NCBI GenBank assembly: GCA_018242725.1
Contig: JAFEBI010000011.1
Span: forward strand, 248,001 to 312,000
Length of the DNA: 64,000 bases
From: Nitrospira sp.
GTDB taxonomy: Bacteria > Nitrospirota > Nitrospiria > Nitrospirales > Nitrospiraceae
Reading direction: 5' to 3'
Below the pieces are notes generated by a model. That model made no database searches. It was not told the origin of the DNA and saw only the letters and a list, made by a program, of their open reading frames with translations. The position numbers and the translations under genes were made by a program. Numbering within the stretch: position 1 is the first letter of the stretch; each line of letters begins with the position of its first letter. Positions 2 to 54,935 of the stretch are shown one piece after another.

Positions 2-589
2 ACCGGGTATCGAGTGACGTGGGGCGGATCATTTGAAAATATGGAGCGGGCGATGGCGAAGCTACAAGTCATCGTGCCGATTACCATCGGACTGATTTTC
101 TTCCTCTTGTATTCCACCTTCAACTCTCTCCGGCAAGCGACGCTGATCATCTTGAACCTGCCGTTTGCGTTGATCGGGGGAGTGGTGGCGTTGTGGCTGA
201 CGAAAGAGTATCTCAGTGTGCCGGCCTCTATCGGATTCATCAACCTGTTCGGTGTGGCCGTGCTGAATGGCATCGTGCTGGTCTCGTATATGAATAAGCT
301 GCGGGAAGACGGACACAGCTTAGATGAGGCGGTTACCTCAGGGGCGTTGCTCAGATTGCGTCCAGTCCTAATGACGGCCTTGGTTGCGCTGTTAGGGCTT
401 GTTCCGCTCGCGTTTGCTCAAGGGATTGGGTCGGAGGTTCAGCGCCCGCTGGCCATTGTCGTCATCGGTGGATTGGTTAGTTCGACACTACTGACCCTGA
501 TCATGCTGCCCGTCCTCTATCAATGGCTGGAAGGTCGCGCACAGGATCCAAGGCAGGCGGGAGGTCCACCGACGGGATCGGCCGGTTGA
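2..589 (+). CDS. Heavy-metal RND efflux permease (CzcA-like), C-terminal fragment cut by the window edge
   Basis: This is the last ~195 codons of an inner-membrane RND permease of the heavy-metal (CzcA/CusA) type. These proteins use proton flux to export metal ions through a periplasmic adaptor and an outer-membrane channel. The reading frame is open from base 2, so the gene begins outside the window and the in-frame Met/GTG near base 14 is internal. The N-terminal residues (GYRVTWGGSFEN) match the conserved stretch before the last transmembrane bundle. At least four hydrophobic segments follow, with the typical LRLRPVLMTALVALLGLVPLA helix region. The tail ends in a short polar, Gly/Pro-rich segment. 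Family assignment is solid; the metal cannot be inferred. No intact partner genes follow it in the window. Confidence 0.85.
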   Translation, partial: TGYRVTWGGSFENMERAMAKLQVIVPITIGLIFFLLYSTFNSLRQATLIILNLPFALIGGVVALWLTKEYLSVPASIGFINLFGVAVLNGIVLVSYMNKLREDGHSLDEAVTSGALLRLRPVLMTALVALLGLVPLAFAQGIGSEVQRPLAIVVIGGLVSSTLLTLIMLPVLYQWLEGRAQDPRQAGGPPTGSAG

Positions 590-5635: not shown

Positions 5636-5777
5636 TGGCTGTTGCCCGTAGTTGTCTTACATTATGCGTTTATATTATTCTTGCTGCCTATGCCTGTTGA
5701 CCATCCAGTGAGCAGAACCGGACACAGGTCGGTGAGGGAGGGTGGATGTCTCAATTTGGGCTTGCGCAGGTGACCTG

Positions 5778-6329
5778 ATGGGGCAGCGTGTGAAACGAAC
5801 GACCACGATCACGGTAGATCTGGGGGAACTGAAAGCACCCTGGCAGGCCTGGTGTCAGGCCCACGGGGTCACGCCGAGTCACGCCCTCCGGAGCGCCCTT
5901 CGGCAGGCCATGGATCGAAAGGCGACCCAGGCTCCTGCGCCTCGGCTGCCAGTCACCCAGAAGCGAGAAAGAGCCACCGCCCGCATCGAACTAAACCTGA
6001 CGATCTCAGAGCTCGCTGCCCTGAAGAAGATGGCTGGTCACGAAGGCTACGTGCCGACGAAATGGCTGGTGGCGATGGTGCGCACGAAGTGGACCGGGCA
6101 GCCACAGGTTGGACAGCCGGAATTGGAGACCTTGGCCCGGTCGAATCAGCAACTGCTGGCCTTGGGCCGGAACCTGAACCAGATTGCCAAGGTCCTGAAT
6201 ACCGCCCCTCAGGACCGAGTCGCCTTTCTGGTCGAGGTCATCACCGAACTCTCCCGCGTGATCCAAGCCCATACGAAGAAGGTGTCCGATGTCTTGCGCG
6301 GGACTGTGGAGCGCTGGCACATCCAATGA
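5778..6329 (+). CDS. mobC: MobC-like mobilisation (relaxosome) protein, 183 aa
   Basis: Relaxosome accessory protein that binds oriT and helps the relaxase nick DNA. Support is the C-terminal motif LLALGRNLNQIAKVLN, characteristic of MobC-type proteins, after a segment ARIELNLTISELAALKKMAG typical of the ribbon-helix-helix-like region. The N-terminal half is basic. The frame is open from 5742, but the ATG at 5778 fits the family start better. The stop overlaps the next start (ATGA at 6326), as in mobC-relaxase operons. The gene looks intact although its relaxase is truncated. Confidence 0.8.
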   Translation: MGQRVKRTTTITVDLGELKAPWQAWCQAHGVTPSHALRSALRQAMDRKATQAPAPRLPVTQKRERATARIELNLTISELAALKKMAGHEGYVPTKWLVAMVRTKWTGQPQVGQPELETLARSNQQLLALGRNLNQIAKVLNTAPQDRVAFLVEVITELSRVIQAHTKKVSDVLRGTVERWHIQ

Positions 6330-9153: not shown

Positions 9154-9249
9154 AGTTAAAAGATTGGTTGGGGAGAACACTTTGTCGATATGAGAACTGA
9201 AGCGCTCAGCTATAGCATTGTCAGATGAGGGGCCGTGAGCGAGACTTAT
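9154..9249 (-). pseudogene. IS3-type transposase C-terminal remnant
   Basis: The minus strand encodes SLAHGPSSDNAIAERFSSHIDKVFSP and then a stop. This matches the end of rve-type (IS3/IS481) transposases, where S-x-x-G-x-x-x-DNA-x-AE-x-FF carries the last catalytic Glu. Only about 30 codons are left, abutting the 3' end of the Slp-PhoD gene. Confidence 0.5.
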
Positions 9250-11228
9250 TGAGCCATCAGTTGATGCGAGAACCGTGTTCTGCCGCTTTCATCGATTATT
9301 GTGACTTCGAGAACTGTGCCGTGTATTGATATTTCACCAAAGTTCAGGGAGCCGCTCTCGTTAAATAACGTCGTGGGATGGAATGTGGAATCGGGAAGAA
9401 GGGGAGTCTTAGACGCGCCTGAGAGCGGCCCTGCGATGAACTCATGAAAATCATTCACGCCATCGCGGTTTACGTCATAGGCATTGGCCTGCATATAGTG
9501 AACGTCGGCAGCGAGCCAAACGACATTCCGAATGGGATGTGAAAGAATGGTCTGTACGATCAGGCGTAACTCGTGTTGAAAACCTGTTCCATCTGCCCCC
9601 CGCGTCCAGCTATCATTCCCTGGACTCATCACGCTCCCGGGCTTCGGTGTGGATAAGGGCACGCTCGTGGCAATGACTTTCCACGTGGCGGTAGACTGAG
9701 CAAGACCATTAATGAGCCATGCGAGTTGGGTTGTCCCCAACATTGTTTTGTTCGCCCCATCGAGATCCGAGTTACGGCTTCTGTACTGACGCGTATCTAA
9801 GAGGAAGATTTCAAGATCGGTGCCGTAGCGGACATGTCGATAGAGCCGCGTCGGATCATCTGAGGCATGGCGAATCGGCCAGTATTCGAACAGGGCCTGC
9901 CGCCCCAGTGGCATGCGAGGCTCGTAAGGGCCGGAGAAGTTATTAGTTACATCATGATCATCCCACATGGCCCAGATGGGCACGGATGCCAGAAATTGTT
10001 GGAGAGCAGACGAACCGTGCTGATAGCGATGTTTTGTTCGATACTGACTCAGCGTAGACGCGGTGAACTCATTCCCAGTGGCATTCGGCGGAGACGGACA
10101 GCGGTCATCGCCGTAAATCAAATCCCCCAGTAGAATCATAAAGTCCAGATGTTGGCTCTGAAGTCTCTCGAAAATGGGGTAACCTGCACCGTCATCCCGA
10201 CAACGTTGTTGTCCTCCCAAATCCGCACTCCATGCAAAGGTAATCGGCATAGACTGACTTACAGCTGGTGCGGTCATAAATTCGCCTTGCGTGAACCTTC
10301 TGGTCGAGTCAGTCGACGGTTGAGGCGGAATGGTTTGAACCACGTAACGATAGTGGGTAGCGGGGCGCAACCCGGCCAGTTGAACTTGCATAGTGAAGTC
10401 CTGCGCGGCGTTCGTGGAGAAGCGGTCGGTTTTCAGTCGAGAAGCGCGTTCCCAGTCGTCTACGGCCGCGAAGTGAACCTCAACCTGGGCCGGCCCGTCT
10501 GTCCGAAACCACAGCACCGCCGCGTCACTAGTCACATCGCCGGTCGCGATGCCATGAGACACTGCGCCGGTTGATTGGACAGAAGCTTTATCAAAAGCGG
10601 AGGCGGGATCGAGCGAGCTATTCAAGCAATAGGTCTGGTGTCGTAAGGTGTAGTAGCCGGTTGGTAAGTGAGGGAAATCACGAACCTCGTAGCGGCCGGT
10701 CTTCCAGACATGCAGACAACGAGCCATCACCAAGGGCAAAGGCTTTCGGGCACTTGGCGGGGTGACGGTGGAGGAATCAGTGAGAACTCCTACCACAATC
10801 AGTTTGTTCCCTCGCTCGAGCGCAGAAGGGTCGAGGTGTTGGGAATATTGAAGGACAAACGAGCCGGTGGATGGTGCGGATTCGATCACCATGGTCCTGG
10901 ATTTATTCAGGGGGAGCGCCTCAACGGTAATCATCGAACCGTCGACCGTTTTCTCAACGTCACTAATCCGGCCGCCGACTTGAATCAGGTGATTCGTGAG
11001 ATAGGTTTCAGCTTCAGGATTAAAAATGTCCATCTGAAGCGAGGGGTCGAGCGCCTTCGTCACATCAGGAGGAAATAAGGGGTGGGTGCAGGCTGCCAAA
11101 GAATACAGGAGGAGTATGCCACATGGGAGACTCAGAAATTGCACCCACCAAAACGACGTCACACGCAGGCAATAGGGTGAGCGTGCGCCGGTTTGATATC
11201 TCCATAGGCTCACGTCGGTGGCTACTTC
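9246..11228 (-). CDS. Slp-domain / PhoD-type phosphatase fusion lipoprotein
   Basis: Two-domain secreted lipoprotein. After a signal with lipobox LAAC comes an Slp-like outer-membrane lipoprotein domain: GGRISDVEKTVDGSMITVEALPL, then GSFVLQYSQHLDPSALERGNKLIVVGVL and CLHVWK. The C-terminal ~430 residues are a PhoD-type phosphodiesterase/alkaline phosphatase: AVLWFRTDGPAQV (Ig-like part), then SADLGGQQRC, LGDLIYGDDRC, MWDDHDVTNN, LLDTRQYR and WLAADVHYMQ, which include the metal-binding Asp, Asn and His residues. The frame is open to 11372. I prefer ATG 11228; GTG 11162 would give a compact 25-residue signal. The active-site blocks look complete, so a surface or periplasmic phosphoesterase is likely. 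The fusion itself is unusual. Confidence 0.8.
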   Translation of the reverse strand, partial: EVATDVSLWRYQTGARSPYCLRVTSFWWVQFLSLPCGILLLYSLAACTHPLFPPDVTKALDPSLQMDIFNPEAETYLTNHLIQVGGRISDVEKTVDGSMITVEALPLNKSRTMVIESAPSTGSFVLQYSQHLDPSALERGNKLIVVGVLTDSSTVTPPSARKPLPLVMARCLHVWKTGRYEVRDFPHLPTGYYTLRHQTYCLNSSLDPASAFDKASVQSTGAVSHGIATGDVTSDAAVLWFRTDGPAQVEVHFAAVDDWERASRLKTDRFSTNAAQDFTMQVQLAGLRPATHYRYVVQTIPPQPSTDSTRRFTQGEFMTAPAVSQSMPITFAWSADLGGQQRCRDDGAGYPIFERLQSQHLDFMILLGDLIYGDDRCPSPPNATGNEFTASTLSQYRTKHRYQHGSSALQQFLASVPIWAMWDDHDVTNNFSGPYEPRMPLGRQALFEYWPIRHASDDPTRLYRHVRYGTDLEIFLLDTRQYRSRNSDLDGANKTMLGTTQLAWLINGLAQSTATWKVIATSVPLSTPKPGSVMSPGNDSWTRGADGTGFQHELRLIVQTILSHPIRNVVWLAADVHYMQANAYDVNRDGVNDFHEFIAGPLSGASKTPLLPDSTFHPTTLFNESGSLNFGEISIHGTVLEVTIIDESGRTRFSHQLMAQ

Positions 11229-11562
11229 CATTTGCAGGTCTCTTGTTGTCATCTGCCGTCGTTGGTGGCAACCAGTCCCCAAATAACTTAAAAAAATCTT
11301 GTGAAATAAACGTAAATCTAGTAGCAATAAACGGCACATTCTCCTACTAGTGAATACCCTAGACACAAACATCTGTTTGGTGTCGTCTGATGTAGAGATG
11401 GGTGGCTTGGAGAGAAGAAACGACTATAAGGCCAACTGGCGGAAGCATAGACTTGAAGCGTGGGCACTTCTTCATTGGCCTGTTGGACTAGGCTCAGGAC
11501 TCATTAAATGTTCGATTGCCTGACGGCATCGATCTGTGGTGCACGTGTGGCAGGAGGGTGCC

Positions 11563-12240
11563 GTGAGTGACATGTTTCTGTTGAGCCGAGCGCAGTTGAA
11601 GAGAGTCCAACCTTATTTCCCCGTATCCCACGGTATTTCAAGAGTTGATGATACGCGTGTGATCAGCGGGATCATCTATGTCATTCGGTACGGCCTTCAA
11701 TAGGAGGATGCGCCGAAGGCCTACGGGCCCTACAACACGCTGCGCAACCGCTTCATAGGCTGGAGCCGAGCGGGAATATTCGACACGATCATCTGTGAAC
11801 TGTCGCGGGTGCAAGGTCCAGCCGACTGTCTGATGATCGACGCCACGCATCTGAAGGCTCATAGAACTGCTGCCAGCCTGCTCAAAAATGGGTCCTTCCC
11901 CCTGTATTGGCCGCACGAAAGGCGGCCTGAACTCGAAACTGCGTGCCGTTTGCGATGGCGCTGGCAAGGCGGTGCGTCTGTTGTTGTCAGAAGGGCAAAT
12001 GTGCGATTACACGGGAGCCCGCTGTCTCCTGCCGGGCCATCCCAAGCCAAACACTTGAGCGCCGACCGCGGCTATGACGCGGATTGGCTCATCGCCGCCT
12101 TGAAGAAGCAGGACGTCACCCCGTGTATCCCTCCCCCGCGCAAGCACCGAACGCCACGGCGCCGCTATAGCAAAAGCCTCTACAAACAGCGATTCTTCTC
12201 TTTCTTAGCCTCTTCGCTCTGCCGATTCCGTCACTCCGTC
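11563..12240 (+). pseudogene. IS5-family transposase, broken
   Basis: From GTG 11563 or ATG 11572 the frame reads MFLLSRAQLKRVQPYFPVSHG, typical of an IS5-family N terminus. It then meets TAG at 11701 where the family has Trp, continues DAPKAYGPYNTLRNRFIGWSR and MIDATHLKAHRTAASLLKNG (first catalytic Asp region), shifts frame near 11896 and returns to frame near 12050 as ADRGYDADWLIAALKKQ and CIPPPRKHRTP. The end (normally a K-x-E motif region) is not intact. At least one stop and two frameshifts make it non-functional. I could not define terminal inverted repeats. Confidence 0.75.
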
Positions 12241-12369
12241 TATGTCCCATCGCGCTGAAGCAAGCGTGTTTATTTGTCATCATCGGTCGATCGAAATTGT
12301 TCGGCCATGTCCGGCCGGTGGCCTGCCGCAGCATCCGCGCCACGACCGATCTGTCACGGCTGCCGCTGA

Positions 12370-13496: not shown

Positions 13497-14567
13497 GTGA
13501 ATATGAATGTCAGAAGTTTGATCATTGTGATTGGCATCGTTGCCGTGATTGTCCTCATCACAATCAGATTGGGAAGCCGATCACCCAGCGAGTCATCGAC
13601 GACAGCTGCGTCCGACAAACTTATTTTGGTCGATGTAGCCCCCGTCACCGTCGGGTCCATCACGGAGTCCATCCAGGCCGTCGGCACGCTGGAAGCCGTT
13701 GCTTCCGTCACATTGAGACCTGAGATTGCGGGGGTCATTCGCCGGATTCATTTTCAAGATGGTCAGGTGGTCGAACGGGCTGCTCCGTTGGTGGAACTCG
13801 ACCAGGAAGAACTCCAGTCGCAGGTCACGCAAGCGGCGGCAGAGGAGAAGATGGCGGTGGTGACCTATGAGCGGCTGAAGCGGATTACGGACGAGCAGTC
13901 CGCAATCGTGCCGGCTCAACAAATGGATGAAGCCAGGATGGCCTGGCACGCAGCGTCTGCGAACAGTCGCCTCTATGAGGCTCGTCTGAAGAAGACCGTG
14001 ATCCGTGCCCCGTTCAGCGGAACGCTGGGGCTCCGGCGCGTCTCGGTCGGTGATTACCTTCAGCCGGGGCAGGACATCGTCAATTTGGAAGACTTGCGCA
14101 CCCTACATGTGGATTTCAAGGTGGCAGAAGTTTGGTTGAGCCGCCTGCATGTCGATCAGACATTGATCGTCATGACGGATGCGTTCCCAGATACGAGATT
14201 CAAGGGACGGGTAACGGCCATTGATCCGAGAGTCGATGCCGTGAATCGAACCGTAGCAGTGCGAGCGGTGATTCCCAATCCAGAGGGTACCCTCCGACCG
14301 GGCCTCTTTGTCACTGTTCGGTTGACCCTAGGAGAAGACGCCCGCGCGCTGCTTATCCCGGAAGAGGCGGGATTTCTTCGGCAGGAGAAGACCATGGTGT
14401 TCCAAGTCGAGAGACAGACGGCCAGACTGAAAGAAGTGGCGCTGGGCGAGCGTGAACATGGGATGGTCCACGTGCGAGCTGGGTTGAAAGAGGGGGATGT
14501 CGTGGTTCGAACTGGTCTCCACAAGCTCCATGACGGCGATCTTGTCTCAATTAAATCACCTGAGTAG
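13497..14567 (+). CDS. RND efflux periplasmic adaptor (membrane fusion protein), 356 aa
   Basis: Periplasmic adaptor linking an RND permease to an outer-membrane channel. It has an N-terminal signal anchor (MNVRSLIIVIGIVAVIVLITIRLG), a barrel-sandwich lipoyl half (SVTLRPEIAGVIRRIHFQDGQVV), an alpha-helical hairpin at ~100-160, the second lipoyl half (ATVIRAPFSGTLGLRRVSVGDYLQPGQD-type sequence near 160-190) and a beta-barrel domain (FKGRVTAIDPRVDAVNRTVAVRA). Length is normal for HlyD_D23/AcrA-type adaptors. The first start is GTG 13497, with ATG 13503 two codons later. It is the first gene of the efflux operon, 57 bases ahead of the permease. Context points to siderophore export, but substrate is inferred. 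Confidence 0.9.
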   Translation: MNMNVRSLIIVIGIVAVIVLITIRLGSRSPSESSTTAASDKLILVDVAPVTVGSITESIQAVGTLEAVASVTLRPEIAGVIRRIHFQDGQVVERAAPLVELDQEELQSQVTQAAAEEKMAVVTYERLKRITDEQSAIVPAQQMDEARMAWHAASANSRLYEARLKKTVIRAPFSGTLGLRRVSVGDYLQPGQDIVNLEDLRTLHVDFKVAEVWLSRLHVDQTLIVMTDAFPDTRFKGRVTAIDPRVDAVNRTVAVRAVIPNPEGTLRPGLFVTVRLTLGEDARALLIPEEAGFLRQEKTMVFQVERQTARLKEVALGEREHGMVHVRAGLKEGDVVVRTGLHKLHDGDLVSIKSPE

Positions 14568-14624
14568 CAGCCGGCCGATTTCGCCCGGCGTGAGTGTGTC
14601 GTTCTTATATCGTCACGAGTAGAC

Positions 14625-17600
14625 ATGCGTCTTTCCGAGACCTGTATCCAGCGACCGGTGTTCGCGATCGTGATGACGCTGTTGCTGGTGTTGTTCGGGA
14701 TCTTGAATTTCCTGCGATTGCCCGTTCGTGAGTATCCGGACATCAAGCCGCCAATCGTCTCGGTCAGAACGGTGTATCCGGGGGCTAGCGTCTCCGTTAT
14801 GGAGTCGGACGTCACGACACCGCTTGAGGACGTGCTCAGCGGTATTCCAGGGCTTCGGACGATCAGTTCCGCCAGCCGCGAAGAAGTCTCCTCGATTACG
14901 ATGGAATTTGAACTAGGGCGAGATCTGGACGGGGCCACCAATGATGTCCGTGATCGGGTGTCTCAAGTTCGCCCGATCTTGCCGTTGGGCATTCTTGAGC
15001 CTCATGTCGAAAAGGCCGCGGCGGAGAATACGGAAGTCTTATGGCTGGCTGTGTCCAGCGGTCACCATTCGGAACTAGAGTTATCCGACATCGCCGATCG
15101 ATTTATCAAAACACGATTGGCCATGATCCCCGGCGTGTCGTCGACCTATCTCGACGGGGAACGACGCTATGCCATGCGGATTTGGCTGGACCCCGATCGA
15201 CTGGCGGCTCGCCGCCTGACTATTGAGAACGTGGAAGACGCGATTCGTAATCAGAATGCGTCGATCCCAGCCGGCCGGATCGAAAGCCATCAGATGGAAT
15301 TCAGCGTCTCTCTCAAAGGAACTCTGCACAACCCGAAGCAGTTCGAGTCGCTGATTGTGGCCTATCGTGACGGATACCCCGTCCGTCTGGAAGATGTTGC
15401 GCGTGTGGAACTGGGTGCTGAGGATACCCGCAAGTTAGTTCGGTTCAACGGCAAGTCATCGCTGGGAATTTCCGTGTCTCGTCAATCGAAGGCGGACACC
15501 TTGGCCGTCGTGCGTGCCGTCAGAGAGCAACTTCCCTCCATTGCGACGGGGTTACCGAAGGGGATGGACCTGACGCTGGCGTGGGACAGTTCGACGCCGA
15601 TCGAACGGTCGTTGGAGGAAGTGTATGTGGCCTTGGGCCTATCGCTGTTCCTGGTCGTGCTGGTCATTTTTTGTTTTCTAGGAAGCCTGCGGGCAACCTT
15701 GATACCGGTAGTCGCAATCCCAACCTCGATTATCGGGACGTGCACCGTTATGGCGGTGACCGGGTGTTCGCTGAACATCCTGACCCTGCTGGGTCTTGTG
15801 CTCGCCGTCGGCCTCGTGGTGGATGATGCCATCATCGTCCTCGAAAATATTCATCGCCGGATCGTCGCCGGCATGCCGCCTCTGCGGGCTGCTATCGAGG
15901 GGACCAACGAAATCGCCTTTGCCGTCATCGCGACAACGATTTCGCTGGTCACCGTCTTCATCCCTATCGCCTTTTTAACCGACCTCATCGGTAGACTCTT
16001 TGCGGAATTGGCCATAGCCATTGCATCAGCGGTGCTCTTGTCCGGTTTCGTGGCATTGACCCTCACGCCGATGATGTGTGGGCGGCTGCTTCGCCAGGAC
16101 GGTGGACGGTTCACTCGATTTCGATTCGCTGCGGGGCTTGCGGATGCCGTGACCCAATGCTACCGCCGTGGTCTTGAATGGGCTATCAACGCGAGAACGG
16201 TGGTTGTCATCGTCGCTGTCGGATCCAGTGTGGCGAGTCTTTTTATCTTCACCCGACTCCCTTCCGAATTAGCGCCACTTGAAGACGTGGGGTGGTTTTC
16301 CGGCTTTCTCACGGCGCCCCAAGGCGCCACGCTTCGCTACACTGACACCTATGCCAAAGAGTTGGAAACGTTGCTCCAGGGGGTTCCTGAGATTGCCCAT
16401 ACGTATATGATGGTGGCTCTCGGCGACCGTCCGACGAGGGTCAACCGTGCCGAGAGTTGGGTGACGTTGAAGGATTGGGACGAGCGCACGAGGAGTCAGC
16501 AGGAAATCGTCGCAGATCTGAATCACAAACTCGGTAGGTTGACCGGGGTGAGGGCCTATCTGCTCAATCCCTCCTCTATCGGAGATTGGTTGGAGAAATC
16601 CCCCGTGCAGTTCGTCCTTGGGGGATTGGACTATCAGGAACTACAGCAGGTTGCCGACGAACTGGTGGCACGATTGGCGAGCCACCCAGGATTTGTGGCG
16701 CCTGGGATGGATGTGGCGTTGAGTACGCCGCACCTGACGGTGGAAACGCATCGCGACAAGAGCGCCGATCTCGGTGTGTCCATCGCCTCCATCGGCCGGA
16801 CGCTGGAGACTTTGCTCAGCGGAAGACCGGTGAATACATTCATGCAGAACGGTCGACAGTATAAGGTGATCGTGAAAGTCGACGACCGACATCGCGAGAA
16901 ACCATCCGACATCAGTCAGCTCTATGTGCGGGGGAATGATGGGGCATTGGTTCAGCTAAACAATATCGTGACGATCAAGGAAGTGCCGGCGCCGGAAACG
17001 TTGAACCATGTCGATCGCATGCGTGCCGTTACGATCAGCGCGGGGTTGGCCGAGGGGTTCACGCTGGGACAGGCTTTGAACTATCTGGATGAAACATCGA
17101 AGGAGATCATCAAGCCCGGTATGAGGACCGCCTATGCCGGAGAGTCCAAGACCTTCGCAGAGAGCAATCGGAATCTGCATATGACGTTCGTATTGGCACT
17201 GGCGGTCATCTTTCTGGTGCTCGCCGCGCAGTTTGAAAGTTTCCGGCATCCCTGGACGATTCTCTTGGCGGTGCCACCGGCTTTGTCGGGAGCGATGTTT
17301 TCCCTGACGGCGATTGACGGGACCTTGACTATCTATAGCCAAATCGGACTGGTCATTCTGATCGGACTAGTCACGAAGAATGCGATCCTGATCGTGGAAC
17401 TTGCCAATCAGCTTCAGGAACGTGGCATGAGCGTATCTGATGCTGCCATCGAAGCCGCGATGTTGCGCCTTCGTCCGATTTTGATGACAACCTGTGCGAC
17501 GATTCTCGGGGCTTTGCCGTTGGCGTTAGCCACCGGCGCAGGAGCGGTCGGTCGTCGGCAGATCGGCGTGGTGATCATCGGGGGGCTGTTGATCTCAACT

Positions 17601-17687
17601 CTCGTGACGCTCGTACTGGTGCCGGCCGGTTACGTGATCTTATCGAGCCGCGGCAAGATTTCTGATGTCCCACGCGCAGGAGTATAG
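14625..17687 (+). CDS. RND efflux permease (HAE-1/AcrB-MexF type), 1020 aa
   Basis: Inner-membrane proton-driven exporter of organic molecules. Length 1020 fits AcrB-type pumps. TM1 is VFAIVMTLLLVLFGILNFLRLPVREYPDI, followed by the porter-domain start PPIVSVRTVYPGAS. The TM4 region with the proton-relay acidic pair reads VLAVGLVVDDAIIVLENIHR near residues 395-410. The second half repeats the fold, ending in the last TM bundle (GLVTKNAILIVELANQLQERG, RLRPILMTTCATILGALPLA). No truncation is seen. It is co-directional with adaptor and OEP genes and just upstream of exbB-exbD-tonB, suggesting a secretion route for the siderophore made downstream (inference). Confidence 0.92.
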   Translation: MRLSETCIQRPVFAIVMTLLLVLFGILNFLRLPVREYPDIKPPIVSVRTVYPGASVSVMESDVTTPLEDVLSGIPGLRTISSASREEVSSITMEFELGRDLDGATNDVRDRVSQVRPILPLGILEPHVEKAAAENTEVLWLAVSSGHHSELELSDIADRFIKTRLAMIPGVSSTYLDGERRYAMRIWLDPDRLAARRLTIENVEDAIRNQNASIPAGRIESHQMEFSVSLKGTLHNPKQFESLIVAYRDGYPVRLEDVARVELGAEDTRKLVRFNGKSSLGISVSRQSKADTLAVVRAVREQLPSIATGLPKGMDLTLAWDSSTPIERSLEEVYVALGLSLFLVVLVIFCFLGSLRATLIPVVAIPTSIIGTCTVMAVTGCSLNILTLLGLVLAVGLVVDDAIIVLENIHRRIVAGMPPLRAAIEGTNEIAFAVIATTISLVTVFIPIAFLTDLIGRLFAELAIAIASAVLLSGFVALTLTPMMCGRLLRQDGGRFTRFRFAAGLADAVTQCYRRGLEWAINARTVVVIVAVGSSVASLFIFTRLPSELAPLEDVGWFSGFLTAPQGATLRYTDTYAKELETLLQGVPEIAHTYMMVALGDRPTRVNRAESWVTLKDWDERTRSQQEIVADLNHKLGRLTGVRAYLLNPSSIGDWLEKSPVQFVLGGLDYQELQQVADELVARLASHPGFVAPGMDVALSTPHLTVETHRDKSADLGVSIASIGRTLETLLSGRPVNTFMQNGRQYKVIVKVDDRHREKPSDISQLYVRGNDGALVQLNNIVTIKEVPAPETLNHVDRMRAVTISAGLAEGFTLGQALNYLDETSKEIIKPGMRTAYAGESKTFAESNRNLHMTFVLALAVIFLVLAAQFESFRHPWTILLAVPPALSGAMFSLTAIDGTLTIYSQIGLVILIGLVTKNAILIVELANQLQERGMSVSDAAIEAAMLRLRPILMTTCATILGALPLALATGAGAVGRRQIGVVIIGGLLISTLVTLVLVPAGYVILSSRGKISDVPRAGV

Positions 17688-17925
17688 GCTTCCCGGCATG
17701 GGCACACATAGTAATGTCCATAACTCGTTACGAATTTGTCCTTCCATTCCTCGATTCGCGACGCGCAGCAAGAACAACACTACCAGTGGATGTGCGGACA
17801 AGACTAAGCTATTTCGTCTTATTAGGTAGGAATGAATGATGAGTCCAGAGGTGGCGAGTGCGTCCTTTTGTGTTTGGCAGGGTCGGTCGGCTGGTGACTG
17901 GGACTTGATCTATGAAGGGAATGTA

Positions 17926-19488
17926 ATGGTTCGTGGAGTGACCGTTCGCCATCGGCTTGCATTCATTATAATCGCCAGTCTGTGGGCCTGGTTGGTTCCA
18001 ACCTCGAGTTGGAGTCTGGAGGTCACACAACCGATGCCTTCGGAACGCTCAGAACATATCTCACTGGCAGAGGCAACCGTGCGTGCCCTGCAGCACAATC
18101 TCGATATCAGCATCAGCCGCCACACGAAAGAAAGCCGGTTGGCCGATATCGTGATCGAACAAGCAAGGTTTGATCCAACGTTGAGTGTGAACGGGCGGTA
18201 TCTGCGGACGGTTGATCCTCTTGAGCGACCCGTGTTCGGTGCAACAGGAAATCTCCTGAATCAGATCCAGAGGTTCGACCAGCGCAACCATTCCGTAACC
18301 GTCGATGCGTCGACCAACCTCGTGACGGGCGGCAATGTCGGAGTGATCTATAATCCGGCACGGAACAGTGTGAATCAGGATCTTGCTGAGGGGTTCTTGT
18401 TTAATCCAGCCTGGACCGGCGGCCTCTCGTTCAGCCTAACCCAGCCGGTATTGAAGAATGCCGGGATCGGGGTCAACCAGACCTTTATCAAGGTCGCCCA
18501 AAACAATGCGATTGTCGAGCAGCACATCTTTCAAGATCAGGTCCTGACCGTCATCGCGTCCGTGGAACAAAATTATTGGGAACTGGTATATGCCCGAGAA
18601 AATGTGAAGGTCGCCCAAGCCGCGTTGAAGGCTGCCGAGGAATTGCTGGCGACGAACAGGATCAAGGCCAAGGCTGGGGTGATGTCGGTGGTCGATGTGC
18701 TTCAGGCCGAGGCCGCCGTCGCATCCCGAGTAGAACAGGTCTTGGTGGCTGAAAAAGCCATTCGGGATGAGGAGGATCAACTGCGAACCCTGCTCAATCC
18801 GGGTGAAGCTCAGCTGCGGCAAACGGTCCGCCTCATAACACTTGACGCGCCTATCACCTTTATGGAAACGCTCAGTCTTGAAGAGGCCATTGAGACTGCC
18901 ATCGAACAACGGCCGGAAATTGCGCAAGCCAAAAAAAATATCGAGTCCAGCGAGTTGAATAGGAAATTCGCCCGCAACCAGTTGCTGCCCACACTCTCTG
19001 TGCAGGGAACCGTCGGACTTTCCGGATTAGGAACTGATTTTGGTAACTCGTTTACCAGAAACTTCAGCGGCGATTTCTATAACTACGGGGCGGGGTTGAT
19101 GTTCAGCTATCCGCTTGGCAACCGTTCCGCTATCAGTGCCTACAACAAACGCAAATTAGAGGCTAAGAATGCCGAAGCCTCCCTGGAGCGTGTCCGTCAT
19201 CAAATCATTCTCGTGGTGCGTGAGGCGGTGAGGCGGGTGGAGACCGACTTCAAGCGTATCGGAACCACCCGCTCGGCACGCATGTTAGCTGAGAAACAAC
19301 TGCAAACCGAGCAGGAACGGTTACGTGTCGGGCTGAGTACGACCCGCTTTGTTCTTGATTTTCAGCGAGACTTGGCCACGGCGCAGGGGAATGAGCTGCG
19401 GGCGATTGTGGATTACAATAAGTCCCTCTCCAATCTTGAGCGTCAAAAGGCCACGACACTTGACCGCTATCATCTTGAATTGTCGTAA
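17926..19488 (+). CDS. TolC-family outer-membrane efflux protein, 520 aa
   Basis: Outer-membrane channel completing the tripartite pump. After a signal peptide (MVRGVTVRHRLAFIIIASLWAWLVPTSSWS) come two OEP repeats, each with long helices: ISLAEATVRALQHNLDI near the start and LSLEEAIETAIEQRPEIAQAKKNIESSEL for the second, the usual internal duplication. The frame is open to 17836, but ATG 17926 has GAAGGGA upstream and directly precedes the signal, so I use it. The gap from the permease is 238 bases, so an extra promoter is possible. Length and repeats are typical. Confidence 0.88.
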   Translation: MVRGVTVRHRLAFIIIASLWAWLVPTSSWSLEVTQPMPSERSEHISLAEATVRALQHNLDISISRHTKESRLADIVIEQARFDPTLSVNGRYLRTVDPLERPVFGATGNLLNQIQRFDQRNHSVTVDASTNLVTGGNVGVIYNPARNSVNQDLAEGFLFNPAWTGGLSFSLTQPVLKNAGIGVNQTFIKVAQNNAIVEQHIFQDQVLTVIASVEQNYWELVYARENVKVAQAALKAAEELLATNRIKAKAGVMSVVDVLQAEAAVASRVEQVLVAEKAIRDEEDQLRTLLNPGEAQLRQTVRLITLDAPITFMETLSLEEAIETAIEQRPEIAQAKKNIESSELNRKFARNQLLPTLSVQGTVGLSGLGTDFGNSFTRNFSGDFYNYGAGLMFSYPLGNRSAISAYNKRKLEAKNAEASLERVRHQIILVVREAVRRVETDFKRIGTTRSARMLAEKQLQTEQERLRVGLSTTRFVLDFQRDLATAQGNELRAIVDYNKSLSNLERQKATTLDRYHLELS

Positions 19489-48357: not shown

Positions 48358-51300
48358 ATGAATCCGACGCATACCAATCCATGCATCATCGGCGCACCGG
48401 CGTCGGCTGCGAGTTCAACGAACGTGGATGTCTTTCCCGCGAGCTTCGCGCAGAAGCGATTATGGTTTCTTTCACAGCTGGAGCCGGACAGTGCCTCGTA
48501 TAACACGGCACTGGCAGTGCGACTACGGGGTGCTCTCAACCGGGAAGCGACGGTATCGAGCCTCAACGAAATCGTTCGGCGGCACGAGATTCTCCGCACG
48601 ACCTTCGATGAAGTAGACGGACAGTTGGTTCAAGTCATCGCCGAGGATCGTCCAATCGATTTACCGGTAGTGGATTTTAGCCTCAAGTCGCCGTCCCAGC
48701 GTGAGGTTTCGGCCGCCGCCGCGGCGCAGGCTGAGGCACAACGGCCGTTCGATCTTCGCCGCGGACCTGTGATGCGGGTGCGTCTGCTCAAACTGAAACC
48801 GCAAGAGCACATCTTGGTTCTCACGCTGCATCATATCGTCTGCGACGGGTGGTCGTCGCAGATACTCGCGCGTGAATTCGGAGCGCTTTACGAGGCGTTC
48901 GATGCAGGCTTATCGTCACCGCTTCCTCCGTTACCGATCCAGTACGCGGATTATGCAGTCTGGCAGCGTGGATGGTTGCAGGGATCGGTGATCGAGGAAC
49001 GGCTGGCCTATTGGAAAGAGAAATTGAAAGGGAAACTGCCGATACTCGACCTGCCGACGGACCGTCCGCGCCAGGCCATCCAGAGTGACCGGGGCGCGCG
49101 TCTTCCGTTTTCGGTGTCGCGCGACATGATCGACCGGCTGCACGCATTGAGCCGCACTCAGGGTGTGACGCTGTTCATGACGCTCCAGGCCGCCTTTCAA
49201 GTGTTGCTGATGCGGTACAGCGGACTCGATGAGTTTTGCCTCGGCACCCCGGTCGCAAACCGGCCGAAGCGGGAAACGGAGTCGTTGATCGGCTTCTTCG
49301 CCAATACGCTCGTGCTGCGTGCGAACCTTTCGGGCAACCCGACATTCACCGATTTTCTGGTTCGCGTACAGGAAACGGTGCTGGGCGCGCAGGCTCACCA
49401 GGATTTGCCGTTCGAGCAATTGGTGGACGCGCTGCAGCCGGTCCGAGCGCTCAGTCATACACCGCTGTTCCAAGTGATGTTCGCGCTGCAGACCTCGCTG
49501 GCCCGAAGCCTGGCGATCACGCAGTTGGAAGTGAGTGCGATGGAGTTGGATGCGGGTGGCGCCAAGTTCGATCTGTCGCTCGACATGACGGAAGACGAGA
49601 CCGGATTGGACTGCGCGTTCGAGTACAACCAGGATCTTTTTGATCAGGTGACCGTAGCCAGGATGGCAAGCCATCTGAAGCGACTCCTGGAAGGTATTGC
49701 CGACAATCCACAGGATCGTCTTCACGAACTCCCGATGCTGATGGAGAAGGAGCGACGGAAGATTCTGATCGACTGGAACGACACGGCCGCTGCCGGAGCC
49801 GCAGAAGGGCAAGTTGCTCGCCTCTTCGAAGAGCAGGTGGCGAGGTCTCCACAAGCTGTGGCGCTCTCCTGCGGCGGGGAAACTCTCAGTTACCGTGACT
49901 TGAACGACCGTGCTGATCGCATTGCTCGCGCGCTTTCGAGCGTCGGGGTCGGTTGTGAGTCCATCGTTGCGGTGCTCGGCGACCGAAGCCTCAACTATGT
50001 GGCCCTCATGATCGCTCTATGGAAACGCGGCGGAGTCTACTTGCCGCTCGACCCCGGACACCCGCCGTCACGGTGGACGTCCATCCTCGAAACGAGCCGG
50101 GCATCGATGGTTGTGACTACGGAAGACTGGGCCTCCAGGGCAAATGACGCGATCGGCCGATTGCCTGAAGCTGGGCGGCCGGGAATACTCACAGTCGAGG
50201 CCTGTCTCTCCGAGAATCCGGCTCCGGCCGATGATGGAATGGCTTGGCCGTCCTCGAAACTGGCTTATGTCATCTACACGAGCGGATCGACCGGTATTCC
50301 GAAGGGAGCAATGGTGACGGAGGGCGGTCTGATCAATCATCTTCGGAGCAAGATTTCCATGCTCCGGTTGGGTCCGAACGATGTTGTCGCGCAGACCGCC
50401 TCTCAGGGATTCGATATTTCAGTCTGGCAACTGACGGCCGCACTTCTGTGCGGCGCCAGCATCCTCGTGGTGCCTGATGAGGTGGCTCGCGATCCAGAGC
50501 AATTGCTCCGCTATGCCGACGCGCAAGAAGTGACCGTCCTCGAAACAGTGCCGGCGTTGCTGCAAGGCATGCTCGACAGTGCGGCATCGATCGGAAAGGA
50601 GGCGCCGAGGTTGGCTCGGTTGCGATCGTTATTGCCCACCGGCGAAACGCTGCCGCCCGCCCTCGTTCGCCGATGGTTTGAGCGATACCGGCACGTGCCG
50701 TTGATCAACGCCTACGGGCCGGCCGAATGCGCCGACGATGTGGCGATGGCGACGATTACGGCGCCCCCCGACGACACCCATGCCCATTCTCCGATCGGCA
50801 AACCCATCGTCAATCTCCGTCTGTATGTGGTGGACGACTGGTTGGAACCGGTCCCGATCGGAGCCGTGGGCGAACTGTGCGTGGCGGGAGCGGGGGTGGG
50901 GCGCGGCTATCTGTATGATCCGGCCAGAACCGGCGAGGTGTTTGTGCCGGATCCCTTTTCAGGTGAACCGGGCTCTCGTCTGTATCGAACCGGCGACCGG
51001 GTTCGTCATCGTTCGGACGGCACGATGGAATTTCTTGGACGTCGCGACCATCAAGTCAAAGTCCGTGGCGTGCGCATTGAGTTGGGTGAAATTGAATTGC
51101 GTCTGCAGGCTTTCCCAGATGTCCGCGAAGCGGCTGCCGTGGTACGCCAGGACCATCCGGGGCAGAAACGATTGGTCGCCTATGTGGTACCACGCGACGG
51201 GGCGTCATGCGATTCGGATGTTCTTATCCGATTGCTGCGGGAGCAATTGCCTGAGCCGATGGTCCCCTCTGCGATCGTCAGACTTGAGATACTTCCTCGT

Positions 51301-54300
51301 AGCGTCAACGGCAAAATCGACCGGGAGGCTTTGCCTCAACCGGAACAGGTGGCCGCCAGAGAATGGACAGCACCCCGCACGCCGACGGAAGCGCAGTTAG
51401 CGGCGGTCTGGGCCGAAGTGCTGGGGGTGGAGCGAGTCGGCGTGCACGACAATTTCTTCGAGCTGGGAGGGGATTCCATCCTGAGTTTACAGGTGATTTC
51501 GCGTGCCAAGGCACAAGGCCTGCCGCTCACACCGCGACATCTGTTCCAGCATCAGACGATCGCCGAACTGGCGGAGGCTGCAGGTGGACGGATTGAGGGA
51601 GTCGATTCGAAACCGGTGATCAAGGTCCAAATTCAGAGACCGACCGATCCGGCCCTTCTCGAAGCAGCACGGCGAGTATATCCCACAACCGAAGAGGTCT
51701 ATCCGCTGACTCCGTTGCAACAAGGATTGCTGTTTCACAGTCTGTACGAACCGCAATCCGGCGTCTACATCGAGCAGCTGAGTTGCCTTCTTCGCGGCGA
51801 CCTGGATCATGCCGCATTCCTCGATGCCTGGCGGATGGTGATCACGCGGTCCACCCCGCTCCGTACCGCGTTCGTGTGGCAGGAACTCGACAAGCCCGTG
51901 CAGGTCGTGTTGCCGGCCGAGGCGCCGCCCATTATCGAACTCGATTGGCGCGACGCAGCCGAATCAGAGCAGAGACGACGACGACAAGAATTCCTCCGGA
52001 ACGATCGACTGACGGACTTCGACCTGACCAAGCCACCGCTGATGCGCCTCGCCTTGATCCGTGTGGGAGATGACGCACGCTATCTGATCTGGACGCATCA
52101 TCACATCGTCCTGGATGGGTGGTGCCTTCCCATTATTCTGGGCGATCTATTCGCCTGCTATGCCTTCATCAAAGGTGGGCCAGAGCCGGGCGAGCCACAG
52201 TCGCAACCGTATCGAGATTATGTCGAGTGGATTGTCTCGCAGGACCAGACAGCGGCGGAACAGTATTGGCGTAAGACTCTGTCAGGCATCACCTCAGCCA
52301 CGCCCCTTCCAACGGATCGCTCACCGGACGCCGCGCAGACGGATGCCGGCTACGGCATGCATCGACTGACGATCTCAGCCGCCAGGACTTCTGCCATCCA
52401 TGACTTCGCCTCTAAAGAGCGCATCACGGTCAATACTCTGCTGCAGGGAGCTTGGGCGTTGTTACTGAGCCGTTATTGTAGCGAAGAAGACGTGTTGTTC
52501 GGCACGACGGTATCGGGGCGCTCCGCGGATGTCCCGGGTATCGAGACGATGCTCGGGCTCTTCATTAATACCTTGCCGCTCCGAGTCACCGTGTCACCGG
52601 ACGCCCTTCTGCGGGATTGGTTGCGAGGAATGCTGCAGCAGAACGCCGAGCTGCGTCAATACGAGCACACCTCGCTCGCGGAGATTCAGAGCTGGAGTCA
52701 GATGCCGCGCGGCACTCAACTATTCGATAGCCTTCTGGTCTTTGACAACCATCCGACCGACCGTACTCTGGATGACGGTGGTGCCGGTTTGAGCGCGCAT
52801 GATGTCTATTTGGAAGGCCAGACCAATTATCCGTTGACCGTCAACGTCGTGCCGGGCGAATCGCTCTCGTTCCTTCTCTCCTATCAGCAGAAGCGCTTTT
52901 CTTCTGAACGCGTGCAACGTATCGCAGCACATCTGGACGTGGTGCTGAACCAGTTGGTCGCGCGGCCGGACTTGCGTCTCTCGGCGATCGAGATATTGGG
53001 GACGGGAGAACGGCGGCAGGTGGTAGAGGAGTGGAACACCACACGACGCGCGTATCCGACAGACGCGACCGTGCCGGAATTGATCTACGAGCAGGCACAG
53101 CGTGCACCGGCAACGACAGCGGTACGGCTGGACGAGCAGGCGCTGAGTTATGACGGACTGTGGCGCCGGAGCGCAGTGCTGGCAGCCGAGTTGCGACGAC
53201 AGGGCGTCGGGCCCGATGTGCTGGTGGGCATCTGCGCCGAGCGGTCTCTGGAAATGGTCATCGGTCTGTTGGCCATTATGCAGGCCGGCGGAGCCTACGT
53301 GCCGATCGATCCGAGTTATCCGGCCGATCACATCGCCTATATGTTGGCTGACGCGGCGCCGTCGGTGCTGCTGACCCAACCGGCTCTGCGGGTGCGACTG
53401 CCGCCGTTCGCCGGAGTATGTCTGGAATTGTCCGCCGCGACGCTCGATGAATTTGAACCGGCGGATCTTCCGCCGTCACCGGTACAGTTGAACCATCTGG
53501 CCTACACGATCTATACGTCCGGTTCCACCGGGCGCCCCAAGGGGGCGTGCAACACGCATGGTGGATTACTCAATCGGCTGCAGTGGATGCAGGAGTATTT
53601 CAGCCTCACGCCGGCAGACCGTGTGTTGCAGAAGACCCCGTTTAGTTTCGATGTGTCGGTGTGGGAGTTGTTCTGGCCCTTGATGACCGGCGCGGAGTTA
53701 GTGCTGGCCCTGCCGGATGAACACAAGGACGGATTGCGGCTCAAAGAGCGGATCGTCAATCAGCAGATCACGACGATGCACTTCGTCCCGCCGATGCTGC
53801 AGGCGTTTCTGGAGACGCCCGGAGTGGAGGTCTGTGCCGGCACGTTGCGGCGTATCATCTGCAGCGGGGAAGCGCTGAGTGACACGGTTCAGCGGCAGTG
53901 TTGGAAACGGTTGCCGGGCGTCGAGCTCCACAATCTCTATGGGCCGACGGAATCGGCGATCGATGTGACGGTGTGGTCGTGTGATCCGATCGCGCCGGCC
54001 GATCCCATCCCGATTGGGCGACCGATCGCCAACACCCAAATTTATGTTCTGGATCGACGAGGCGAGCCGGTTCCCATCGGCGTACCGGGTGAAGTGCATA
54101 TCGGCGGCGTGAACGTAGCGCGGGGCTATCACCGGCGACCGGCGTTGACGGCGGAGCGATTCGTGCCGGATGCGTTCAGTGCGGAGCCGGGTAGGCGGGT
54201 GTACCGGACGGGAGATCTCGCTCGGTATCGCCCGGATGGCCCCATCGAGTATTTGGGCCGGCTGGATCATCAGGTGAAAATCCGAGGAGTCCGCATTGAA

Positions 54301-54927
54301 CTGGGCGAGATCGAGAGCTGCCTGCTCCACCATCCGGCTGTGCACGAGGCCGTCGTTGTGGCACAGGAGAGCACGGCCGGACACAAACGGCTGGTCGGCT
54401 ACGTGGTGCCTCGGACTAGTCACGAGCTATCGGGTGAGGCCCTACGGGAATGGGTCGGGGCGCGGCTCCCGGAGGCGTTCGTCCCGAGCGTCGTGCTGAC
54501 GCTCGAAGCCCTGCCGCTGACACCCAACGGCAAAGTCGACCGCAAGGCGTTGCCGATACCCGATCTGCAAGCGTTGCGGAGTCAGGCGTACGAAGAGCCG
54601 GTCACGGAATTTGAACGAATCCTGGCGACAATCTGGGCAGAAGTGCTTGGCCAGCCGCGCGTGGGCCGGCTCGACAACTTCTTCGAGCTCGGCGGCGATT
54701 CGATCAATACGCTGCAAGTCTTGGCACGCGCCCATCAGCGCGGCATGAAACTCACCCCCAAACAACTGTTCGAGCATCCGACCGTGGCCGCCGCCGCTGG
54801 AGTGGCGGTGCCGGCTGAGGTGCCGGCTGAAGAAGATACGCAGGCCGAACGGACGGGGGGCAACGGGCTCGTGGGCATCGAGCTGTCCGACGAGGACATG
54901 AGCAACCTGCTGGAAGAATTGAAATAG
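48358..54927 (+). CDS. NRPS C-A(Dab)-PCP-C-A(Ser)-PCP, 2189 aa
   Basis: Two modules. Module 1: C with HHIVCDG (158-164), A with code DIWELTADDK (my alignment), which is the code recorded for 2,4-diaminobutyrate, and PCP GGDS Ser1040. Module 2: C with HHIVLDG (1248-1254) of a different subtype (begins YPLTPLQQGLLFHSLYEPQ), A with code DVWHISLIDK, one residue from the Ser code DVWHLSLIDK, and PCP Ser2115. The A-PCP part of module 2 is almost the same as that in the next gene (see repeats). No E or TE domain. ATG 48358 is three bases after the hydroxylase stop. Confidence 0.93.
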   Translation: MNPTHTNPCIIGAPASAASSTNVDVFPASFAQKRLWFLSQLEPDSASYNTALAVRLRGALNREATVSSLNEIVRRHEILRTTFDEVDGQLVQVIAEDRPIDLPVVDFSLKSPSQREVSAAAAAQAEAQRPFDLRRGPVMRVRLLKLKPQEHILVLTLHHIVCDGWSSQILAREFGALYEAFDAGLSSPLPPLPIQYADYAVWQRGWLQGSVIEERLAYWKEKLKGKLPILDLPTDRPRQAIQSDRGARLPFSVSRDMIDRLHALSRTQGVTLFMTLQAAFQVLLMRYSGLDEFCLGTPVANRPKRETESLIGFFANTLVLRANLSGNPTFTDFLVRVQETVLGAQAHQDLPFEQLVDALQPVRALSHTPLFQVMFALQTSLARSLAITQLEVSAMELDAGGAKFDLSLDMTEDETGLDCAFEYNQDLFDQVTVARMASHLKRLLEGIADNPQDRLHELPMLMEKERRKILIDWNDTAAAGAAEGQVARLFEEQVARSPQAVALSCGGETLSYRDLNDRADRIARALSSVGVGCESIVAVLGDRSLNYVALMIALWKRGGVYLPLDPGHPPSRWTSILETSRASMVVTTEDWASRANDAIGRLPEAGRPGILTVEACLSENPAPADDGMAWPSSKLAYVIYTSGSTGIPKGAMVTEGGLINHLRSKISMLRLGPNDVVAQTASQGFDISVWQLTAALLCGASILVVPDEVARDPEQLLRYADAQEVTVLETVPALLQGMLDSAASIGKEAPRLARLRSLLPTGETLPPALVRRWFERYRHVPLINAYGPAECADDVAMATITAPPDDTHAHSPIGKPIVNLRLYVVDDWLEPVPIGAVGELCVAGAGVGRGYLYDPARTGEVFVPDPFSGEPGSRLYRTGDRVRHRSDGTMEFLGRRDHQVKVRGVRIELGEIELRLQAFPDVREAAAVVRQDHPGQKRLVAYVVPRDGASCDSDVLIRLLREQLPEPMVPSAIVRLEILPRSVNGKIDREALPQPEQVAAREWTAPRTPTEAQLAAVWAEVLGVERVGVHDNFFELGGDSILSLQVISRAKAQGLPLTPRHLFQHQTIAELAEAAGGRIEGVDSKPVIKVQIQRPTDPALLEAARRVYPTTEEVYPLTPLQQGLLFHSLYEPQSGVYIEQLSCLLRGDLDHAAFLDAWRMVITRSTPLRTAFVWQELDKPVQVVLPAEAPPIIELDWRDAAESEQRRRRQEFLRNDRLTDFDLTKPPLMRLALIRVGDDARYLIWTHHHIVLDGWCLPIILGDLFACYAFIKGGPEPGEPQSQPYRDYVEWIVSQDQTAAEQYWRKTLSGITSATPLPTDRSPDAAQTDAGYGMHRLTISAARTSAIHDFASKERITVNTLLQGAWALLLSRYCSEEDVLFGTTVSGRSADVPGIETMLGLFINTLPLRVTVSPDALLRDWLRGMLQQNAELRQYEHTSLAEIQSWSQMPRGTQLFDSLLVFDNHPTDRTLDDGGAGLSAHDVYLEGQTNYPLTVNVVPGESLSFLLSYQQKRFSSERVQRIAAHLDVVLNQLVARPDLRLSAIEILGTGERRQVVEEWNTTRRAYPTDATVPELIYEQAQRAPATTAVRLDEQALSYDGLWRRSAVLAAELRRQGVGPDVLVGICAERSLEMVIGLLAIMQAGGAYVPIDPSYPADHIAYMLADAAPSVLLTQPALRVRLPPFAGVCLELSAATLDEFEPADLPPSPVQLNHLAYTIYTSGSTGRPKGACNTHGGLLNRLQWMQEYFSLTPADRVLQKTPFSFDVSVWELFWPLMTGAELVLALPDEHKDGLRLKERIVNQQITTMHFVPPMLQAFLETPGVEVCAGTLRRIICSGEALSDTVQRQCWKRLPGVELHNLYGPTESAIDVTVWSCDPIAPADPIPIGRPIANTQIYVLDRRGEPVPIGVPGEVHIGGVNVARGYHRRPALTAERFVPDAFSAEPGRRVYRTGDLARYRPDGPIEYLGRLDHQVKIRGVRIELGEIESCLLHHPAVHEAVVVAQESTAGHKRLVGYVVPRTSHELSGEALREWVGARLPEAFVPSVVLTLEALPLTPNGKVDRKALPIPDLQALRSQAYEEPVTEFERILATIWAEVLGQPRVGRLDNFFELGGDSINTLQVLARAHQRGMKLTPKQLFEHPTVAAAAGVAVPAEVPAEEDTQAERTGGNGLVGIELSDEDMSNLLEELK
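53011..54704 (+). repeat. A-PCP(Ser) unit, copy in the first Dab-Ser NRPS
   Basis: A 1694-base segment closely similar, with no net length change, to 59526-61219. It runs from the A-domain entry (CGGCGGCAGGTGG) to the PCP Ser codon region. The condensation domains upstream and the sequences downstream of the PCP Ser differ strongly. Confidence 0.85.
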
Positions 54928-54935
54928 GTGACGTA

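Follow-up and report, generated by a model that had tools for sequence, protein, structure and literature searches.

The mechanism of the Slp lipoproteins is described as unknown, a role in acid protection has been proposed, and in Leptospirillum systems with slp are found near mobile elements (PMC7231039). The E. coli SLP is one of several engineered anchors for phosphotriesterase in outer-membrane vesicles (PMC10215610), which suggests that an arrangement with a phosphoesterase anchored through Slp is workable.

In the window, i.e. the 64-kb stretch of Nitrospira sp. DNA analysed here, an Slp, a PhoD_N and a PhoD domain are found in one minus-strand open frame of 661 codons without a stop. 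The features of the locus are as follows.

9246..11231, minus strand: the fusion gene, 661 aa from the preferred ATG (open frame, Pfam, choice of start)
11088..11231, minus strand: predicted lipoprotein signal peptide ending at the lipobox Cys48 (SLAAC, +2 Thr; read from the sequence and aligned with Slp lipoboxes)
10665..11099, minus strand: Slp domain PF03843 (Pfam, 53.6 bits, cut-off 22.5; sister of the REEB81 Slp)
10554..10625, minus strand: junction and linker, from just past Slp Cys202 through the kept mature PhoD N-terminus (placed by aligning the locus with the end of Slp and the start of mature PhoD in REEB81)
10323..10556, minus strand: PhoD_N domain PF16655 (Pfam, 48.1 bits, cut-off 30)
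9315..10187, minus strand: PhoD catalytic domain PF09423 with GDLIYGD, WDDHD, LDTRQYR and ADVHY (Pfam, 204.3 bits, cut-off 27; motif residues; fold)
11524..12255, plus strand: broken IS5-type transposase remnant just 5' of the fusion gene (fragments matching DUF4096 and DDE_Tnp_1, none of which reaches the curated cut-offs)

The stop of the open frame lies at 9246, and the frame extends at least as far as the ATG at 11229-11231, or to 11372 in its longest form. We prefer the ATG at 11231, since the REEB81 sister Slp, see below, begins at the equivalent place. The original prediction, read from the letters of the DNA, had placed the gene at 9246-11228, which is right at the lower end but stops one codon inside this ATG at the upper end. 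It had taken the N-terminal half for an Slp-type lipoprotein and the C-terminal half for a PhoD enzyme, and had proposed a domain search. The search bears out both halves, as the Slp and PhoD profiles all score above their curated cut-offs, with a lipobox just before the Slp domain. In the 660-aa span of the original prediction, Slp covers residues 44-188 (E 2.1e-14, profile positions 1-141 of 153), PhoD_N residues 225-302 (E 1.8e-12) and PhoD residues 348-638 (E 3.7e-60). Numbered from the preferred ATG, Cys48 aligns, read by eye, with the lipobox Cys of other Slps. The protein scores 90.1 bits against the NCBIfam alkaline phosphatase PhoD equivalog NF058638, below the cut-off of 1000, and is thus not that equivalog. 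There is no clear ribosome-binding site at any candidate start of the gene, and its promoter-like matches are not above the counts in shuffled sequence. The Pfam scores together with the orthologous REEB81 pair exclude a chance resemblance, and the architecture of Slp and PhoD in one gene is confirmed as real.

Elsewhere in the window, a C-terminal part of an AcrB-type pump is found at the window edge (14-589, plus strand) with another RND set lying at 13497-19488, and a weak MobC/NikA-like match below cut-offs lies at 5742-6329 (plus strand). A siderophore-type locus extends over 25115-62804 (plus strand) and contains an ECF sigma factor, FecR, a TonB receptor with an STN domain, NRPS and PKS modules, an ABC transporter, a class III aminotransferase, a penicillin amidase, a thioesterase and TauD, including two giant ORFs at 48358-62804; we take it to resemble a pyoverdine cluster. 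Rfam and tRNA scans of the 64-kb window are empty.

The same two parts exist as separate genes in the REEB81 MAG (Nitrospirae bacterium; G406:C49, locus L159), where a sister Slp is followed by a sister PhoD, adjacent and on the same strand. The sister Slp has 50% identity to the Slp half of the fusion and the sister PhoD 69% to the PhoD half, and both are over their Pfam cut-offs (45.4 and 200.5 bits). In the trees, the PhoD half is sister to the REEB81 PhoD with support 100/99 and the Slp half is sister to the REEB81 Slp with support 99/95. The Slp-linked PhoD of REEB81 has its own lipobox-like signal.

The comparison of the two loci locates the join. The REEB81 Slp ends in ...QQTYCLPSVH followed by the stop, while the fusion at the same place reads ...HQTYCLN-SSLDP, and the mature REEB81 PhoD, C-SSPSHPGVPPGSPFDTASSSLTGAVSHG, is aligned with the stretch SSLDPASAFDKASVQSTGAVSHG of the fusion. 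From this it follows that the Slp part of the fusion extends as far as the terminal Cys and that its PhoD part sets in at roughly mature residue 2; the stop codon of Slp, the spacer and the signal of PhoD, as present in the REEB81 pair, are gone. The pair, the paired trees and the position of the join argue against a chimeric assembly. That the Cys at the join is a leftover of the PhoD lipobox was considered and dropped; most Slp relatives of the subclade end in the same Cys. Besides Slp and PhoD, no genes shared between the window and 14 kb of the REEB81 locus were found. A second PhoD of REEB81, on another contig, is canonical (52% identity).

Around the Slp-linked PhoD, REEB81 has four Slp or Slp-like genes (L159:6183-10978), three of them over the Pfam cut-off and the fourth (L159 9631-10242) similar by tblastn only; apart from the sister Slp, three lie within ~4 kb upstream of the pair, two of these over the cut-off. 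The Nitrospiraceae Slps of the subclade (L159, L062-L072) share two Cys, residues 172 and 202 of the fusion, which might form a disulfide. In the same alignment, both are absent from three canonical Slps of the window genome.

Among stand-alone Nitrospirota PhoDs with a readable N-terminus (n=69), a hydrophobic signal plus lipobox is recognised by rule in 66 and a looser form in 3, a count in which 60 and 2, respectively, were assigned by script and the rest by eye, with no signal-peptide program; among the non-Nitrospirota PhoD rows, 0 of 6 have such a signal. As the stand-alone proteins carry lipobox-like signals, a lipid anchor on PhoD would be the usual state here, and, judged from sequence, lipid-anchored PhoD seems to be the usual form in these Nitrospirota. 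A tethering by lipid that is new to the fusion, as put forward in the original prediction, is therefore not supported. In the stand-alone proteins ~20-30 residues separate the lipobox Cys from the PhoD_N domain, and the fusion swaps this linker for an Slp domain between lipid and enzyme. Lipidation and an outer-membrane location of the fusion are predicted from its N-terminus; the +2 residue, Thr and not Asp, is compatible with the latter, and no more. At one of the stand-alone loci (L210, G054:C113:4900-7200), a ~160 aa neighbour gene is in-frame with a truncated second PhoD copy, which adjoins the longer copy.

The original prediction took the fusion for an unfamiliar one, and it is indeed not common. 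In the genus survey, a match at E<=1e-60 is found in 66 of 79 genomes; the one in the window genome is alone in starting before residue 202. The family survey, with at most six candidate places scored per genome, gives a PhoD match at E<=1e-50 in 122 of 175 genomes, and both domains are spanned in one of the 175, the window genome; the matches of G042, G055, G067, G075, G442 and G445 start after residue 300, with the N-termini outside the view. In an even draw across the phylum, with at most three candidate places scored per genome, 87 of 395 genomes match at E<=1e-35 and again only the window genome is seen to span both domains. A search of genome contigs returned 89 relatives, of which 80 were kept; 75 of these have a readable N-terminus and none of the 75 is an Slp-PhoD fusion. 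Fusion candidates were chosen by a match start before residue 202 or a long frame (at least 600 aa) and then read. L073, L078, L089, L096, L143, L145, L038, L019, L048 and L207-L214 were rejected on reading, and for L073, L038, L019 and L207-L214 Pfam gives PhoD in 11 of 11 and Slp in 0 of 11.

A survey of Slp itself covered one phylum. Among the best matches listed the longest frame is 494 aa and the Slp of the fusion is not among them; a further fusion whose Slp part scores weakly could be missing in the same way. With the fusion alone as query, no relatives were found in genome contigs, nor were any found in viral contigs, and none of the 114 plasmid records or 6 phage records with a match covers 80% of the query. 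No Slp was found in the flanks (up to 4 kb) of 80 PhoD loci (tblastn E 1e-4), which indicates that the Slp-PhoD linkage itself is rare, and none was found within 14 kb around the PhoDs of G205, G219 and G149. The linkage is seen in one genome besides the window genome, REEB81, and the fused form in a single genome. Among the papers searched, there is none joining Slp with PhoD as outer membrane lipoprotein, none on an Slp-alkaline phosphatase fusion protein in Nitrospira and none on REEB81. Taken together, this looks like a real and rare gene fusion.

The genomes closest to the window genome help to place its origin. For RpoB (1093 aa), the window genome shows 99% identity to G043, G044, G066, G062, G011, G006 (Nitrospira sp. 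UBA5698), G078 and G089, and 100% to G057 over residues 234-1093, but only 92% to REEB81. A search for AMO gave no match in the window genome, but as its controls gave none either, this negative carries no weight. Seven of these nine relatives have a canonical PhoD (E 5e-146 to 2e-152). None was found in G011, G062 or the window genome. Seven genomes in all were queried for the ~160 aa partner gene of canonical PhoD, which is present in G043, G044, G006 and REEB81 and was not found in the window genome (G000), G011 and G062. As the window genome is 96% complete, its missing canonical locus might sit in a gap. In the tree the PhoD of the fusion branches outside the canonical PhoD clade while the host genome lies inside the genus, which would fit horizontal gain of an Slp-PhoD cassette together with loss of the canonical locus. 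The fused gene thus looks like a horizontally acquired replacement of canonical PhoD, at least from these phylogenetic positions. An old paralogue with many losses, instead of a horizontal gain, is an alternative.

Structurally, the PhoD half is modelled by AlphaFold2 with high confidence, and residues 1-221, the Slp half, have pLDDT <50 and did not fold. The PhoD model aligns to Bacillus subtilis PhoD (2yeq) with Z 37.9 and rmsd 2.9 over 407 residues at 26% identity, i.e. the fold is 2yeq-like. The Bacillus protein is Tat-secreted and is not a lipoprotein. All 32 rows of PhoD alignment A3 share residues G369, D370, Y373, W423-H426, D576 and H578. Asp337 of the fusion sits opposite the position that we take to hold the Fe-binding Cys ligand of BsPhoD, so the metal site might differ from that of BsPhoD; Cys344 is a nearby invariant Cys.

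We suggest, and consider it likely, that the gene is a true fusion of neighbouring Slp and PhoD lipoprotein genes and encodes an exported, lipidated PhoD with Slp as spacer or docking part, replacing canonical PhoD. The starting point would have been two neighbouring lipoprotein genes, Slp first and PhoD second, as REEB81 still has. The loss of ~300 bp (by the REEB81 comparison), with the Slp stop, the spacer and the PhoD signal peptide, would have turned the two into one gene. The product would be exported, cleaved, lipidated at Cys48 and, with Thr and not Asp at +2, probably sorted to the outer membrane. Slp would then lie between the lipid and the PhoD phosphatase/phosphodiesterase and serve, as a folded module, for spacing or docking, the PhoD part would cleave phosphoesters, its putative substrates, at the membrane and the fused gene would take the place of the canonical lipoprotein PhoD.

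Could the fused frame instead be an artefact, in which two adjacent genes as in REEB81 lost ~300 bp during assembly? The unfused pair does exist, and the fused form is seen in one genome only, in a single assembly. However, such a loss must preserve the frame and stop at the PhoD mature start, and the gene is found 257-259 kb into a contig of 475 kb, not at an end; we regard this as highly improbable. Hardly better placed is the idea that the gene, in a region scarred by transposons, is a remnant under decay and yields no useful protein. The broken IS5-type gene 5' of it would fit, as would the branches, which are longer than those of the sisters for both halves (PhoD 0.34 against 0.16, Slp 0.70 against 0.28), but the 661 codons are free of stops, the invariant PhoD motif residues are kept and both halves have a pN well under pS. 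In the comparison with REEB81, pN/pS is 0.294/0.723 for the Slp half and 0.191/0.696 for the PhoD half; as synonymous sites are near saturation, these values reflect constraint since the REEB81 split and not since the fusion.

Two further readings concern what Slp does. It might be a passive signal and spacer without a function of its own, for which any lipoprotein would serve. A short linker suffices for the stand-alone PhoDs, and the E. coli SLP serves as a generic phosphotriesterase anchor in vesicles (PMC10215610). On the other hand, the Slp half exceeds the cut-off of its family and retains both subclade Cys, its pN/pS against REEB81 speaks for constraint, and the REEB81 sister genes are neighbours though unfused. 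We find a purely passive role doubtful, while granting it some chance. It can also be speculated that Slp is a specific outer-membrane partner, which for example docks or positions phosphoesterases, so that the REEB81 pair and the fusion would be the first genetic link between Slp and an enzyme, and that the cassette moved horizontally and replaced canonical PhoD; this we think unlikely. A natural Slp-enzyme fusion together with an unfused sister pair offers a handle on the part that Slp may play for a membrane-anchored phosphoesterase, be it placement, protection or regulation. Ecologically, the protein may serve phosphorus scavenging or phospholipid turnover in nitrifying bacteria.

Compared with known systems, the REEB81 pair is alike in order, strand and the sister Slp and PhoD, but consists of two genes with separate lipobox-like signals, and has extra Slp or Slp-like genes upstream. 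The stand-alone Nitrospira PhoDs (PF09423) share PhoD_N, PhoD and the N-terminal lipobox (51-56% identity for full-length matches), lack the Slp domain and, where the flank was read, adjoin the ~160 aa gene. Bacillus subtilis PhoD has the fold of the PhoD half and, unlike the fusion, no Slp. The E. coli Slp (PF03843) belongs to the same lipoprotein family but is encoded by a stand-alone 567 bp gene without an enzyme domain. The engineered SLP-phosphotriesterase (PMC10215610) likewise anchors a phosphoester hydrolase through Slp, but is man-made, with an enzyme of another family and the E. coli Slp. What would be new is the natural Slp-PhoD fusion; a lipid anchor on PhoD is apparently not new in these bacteria.
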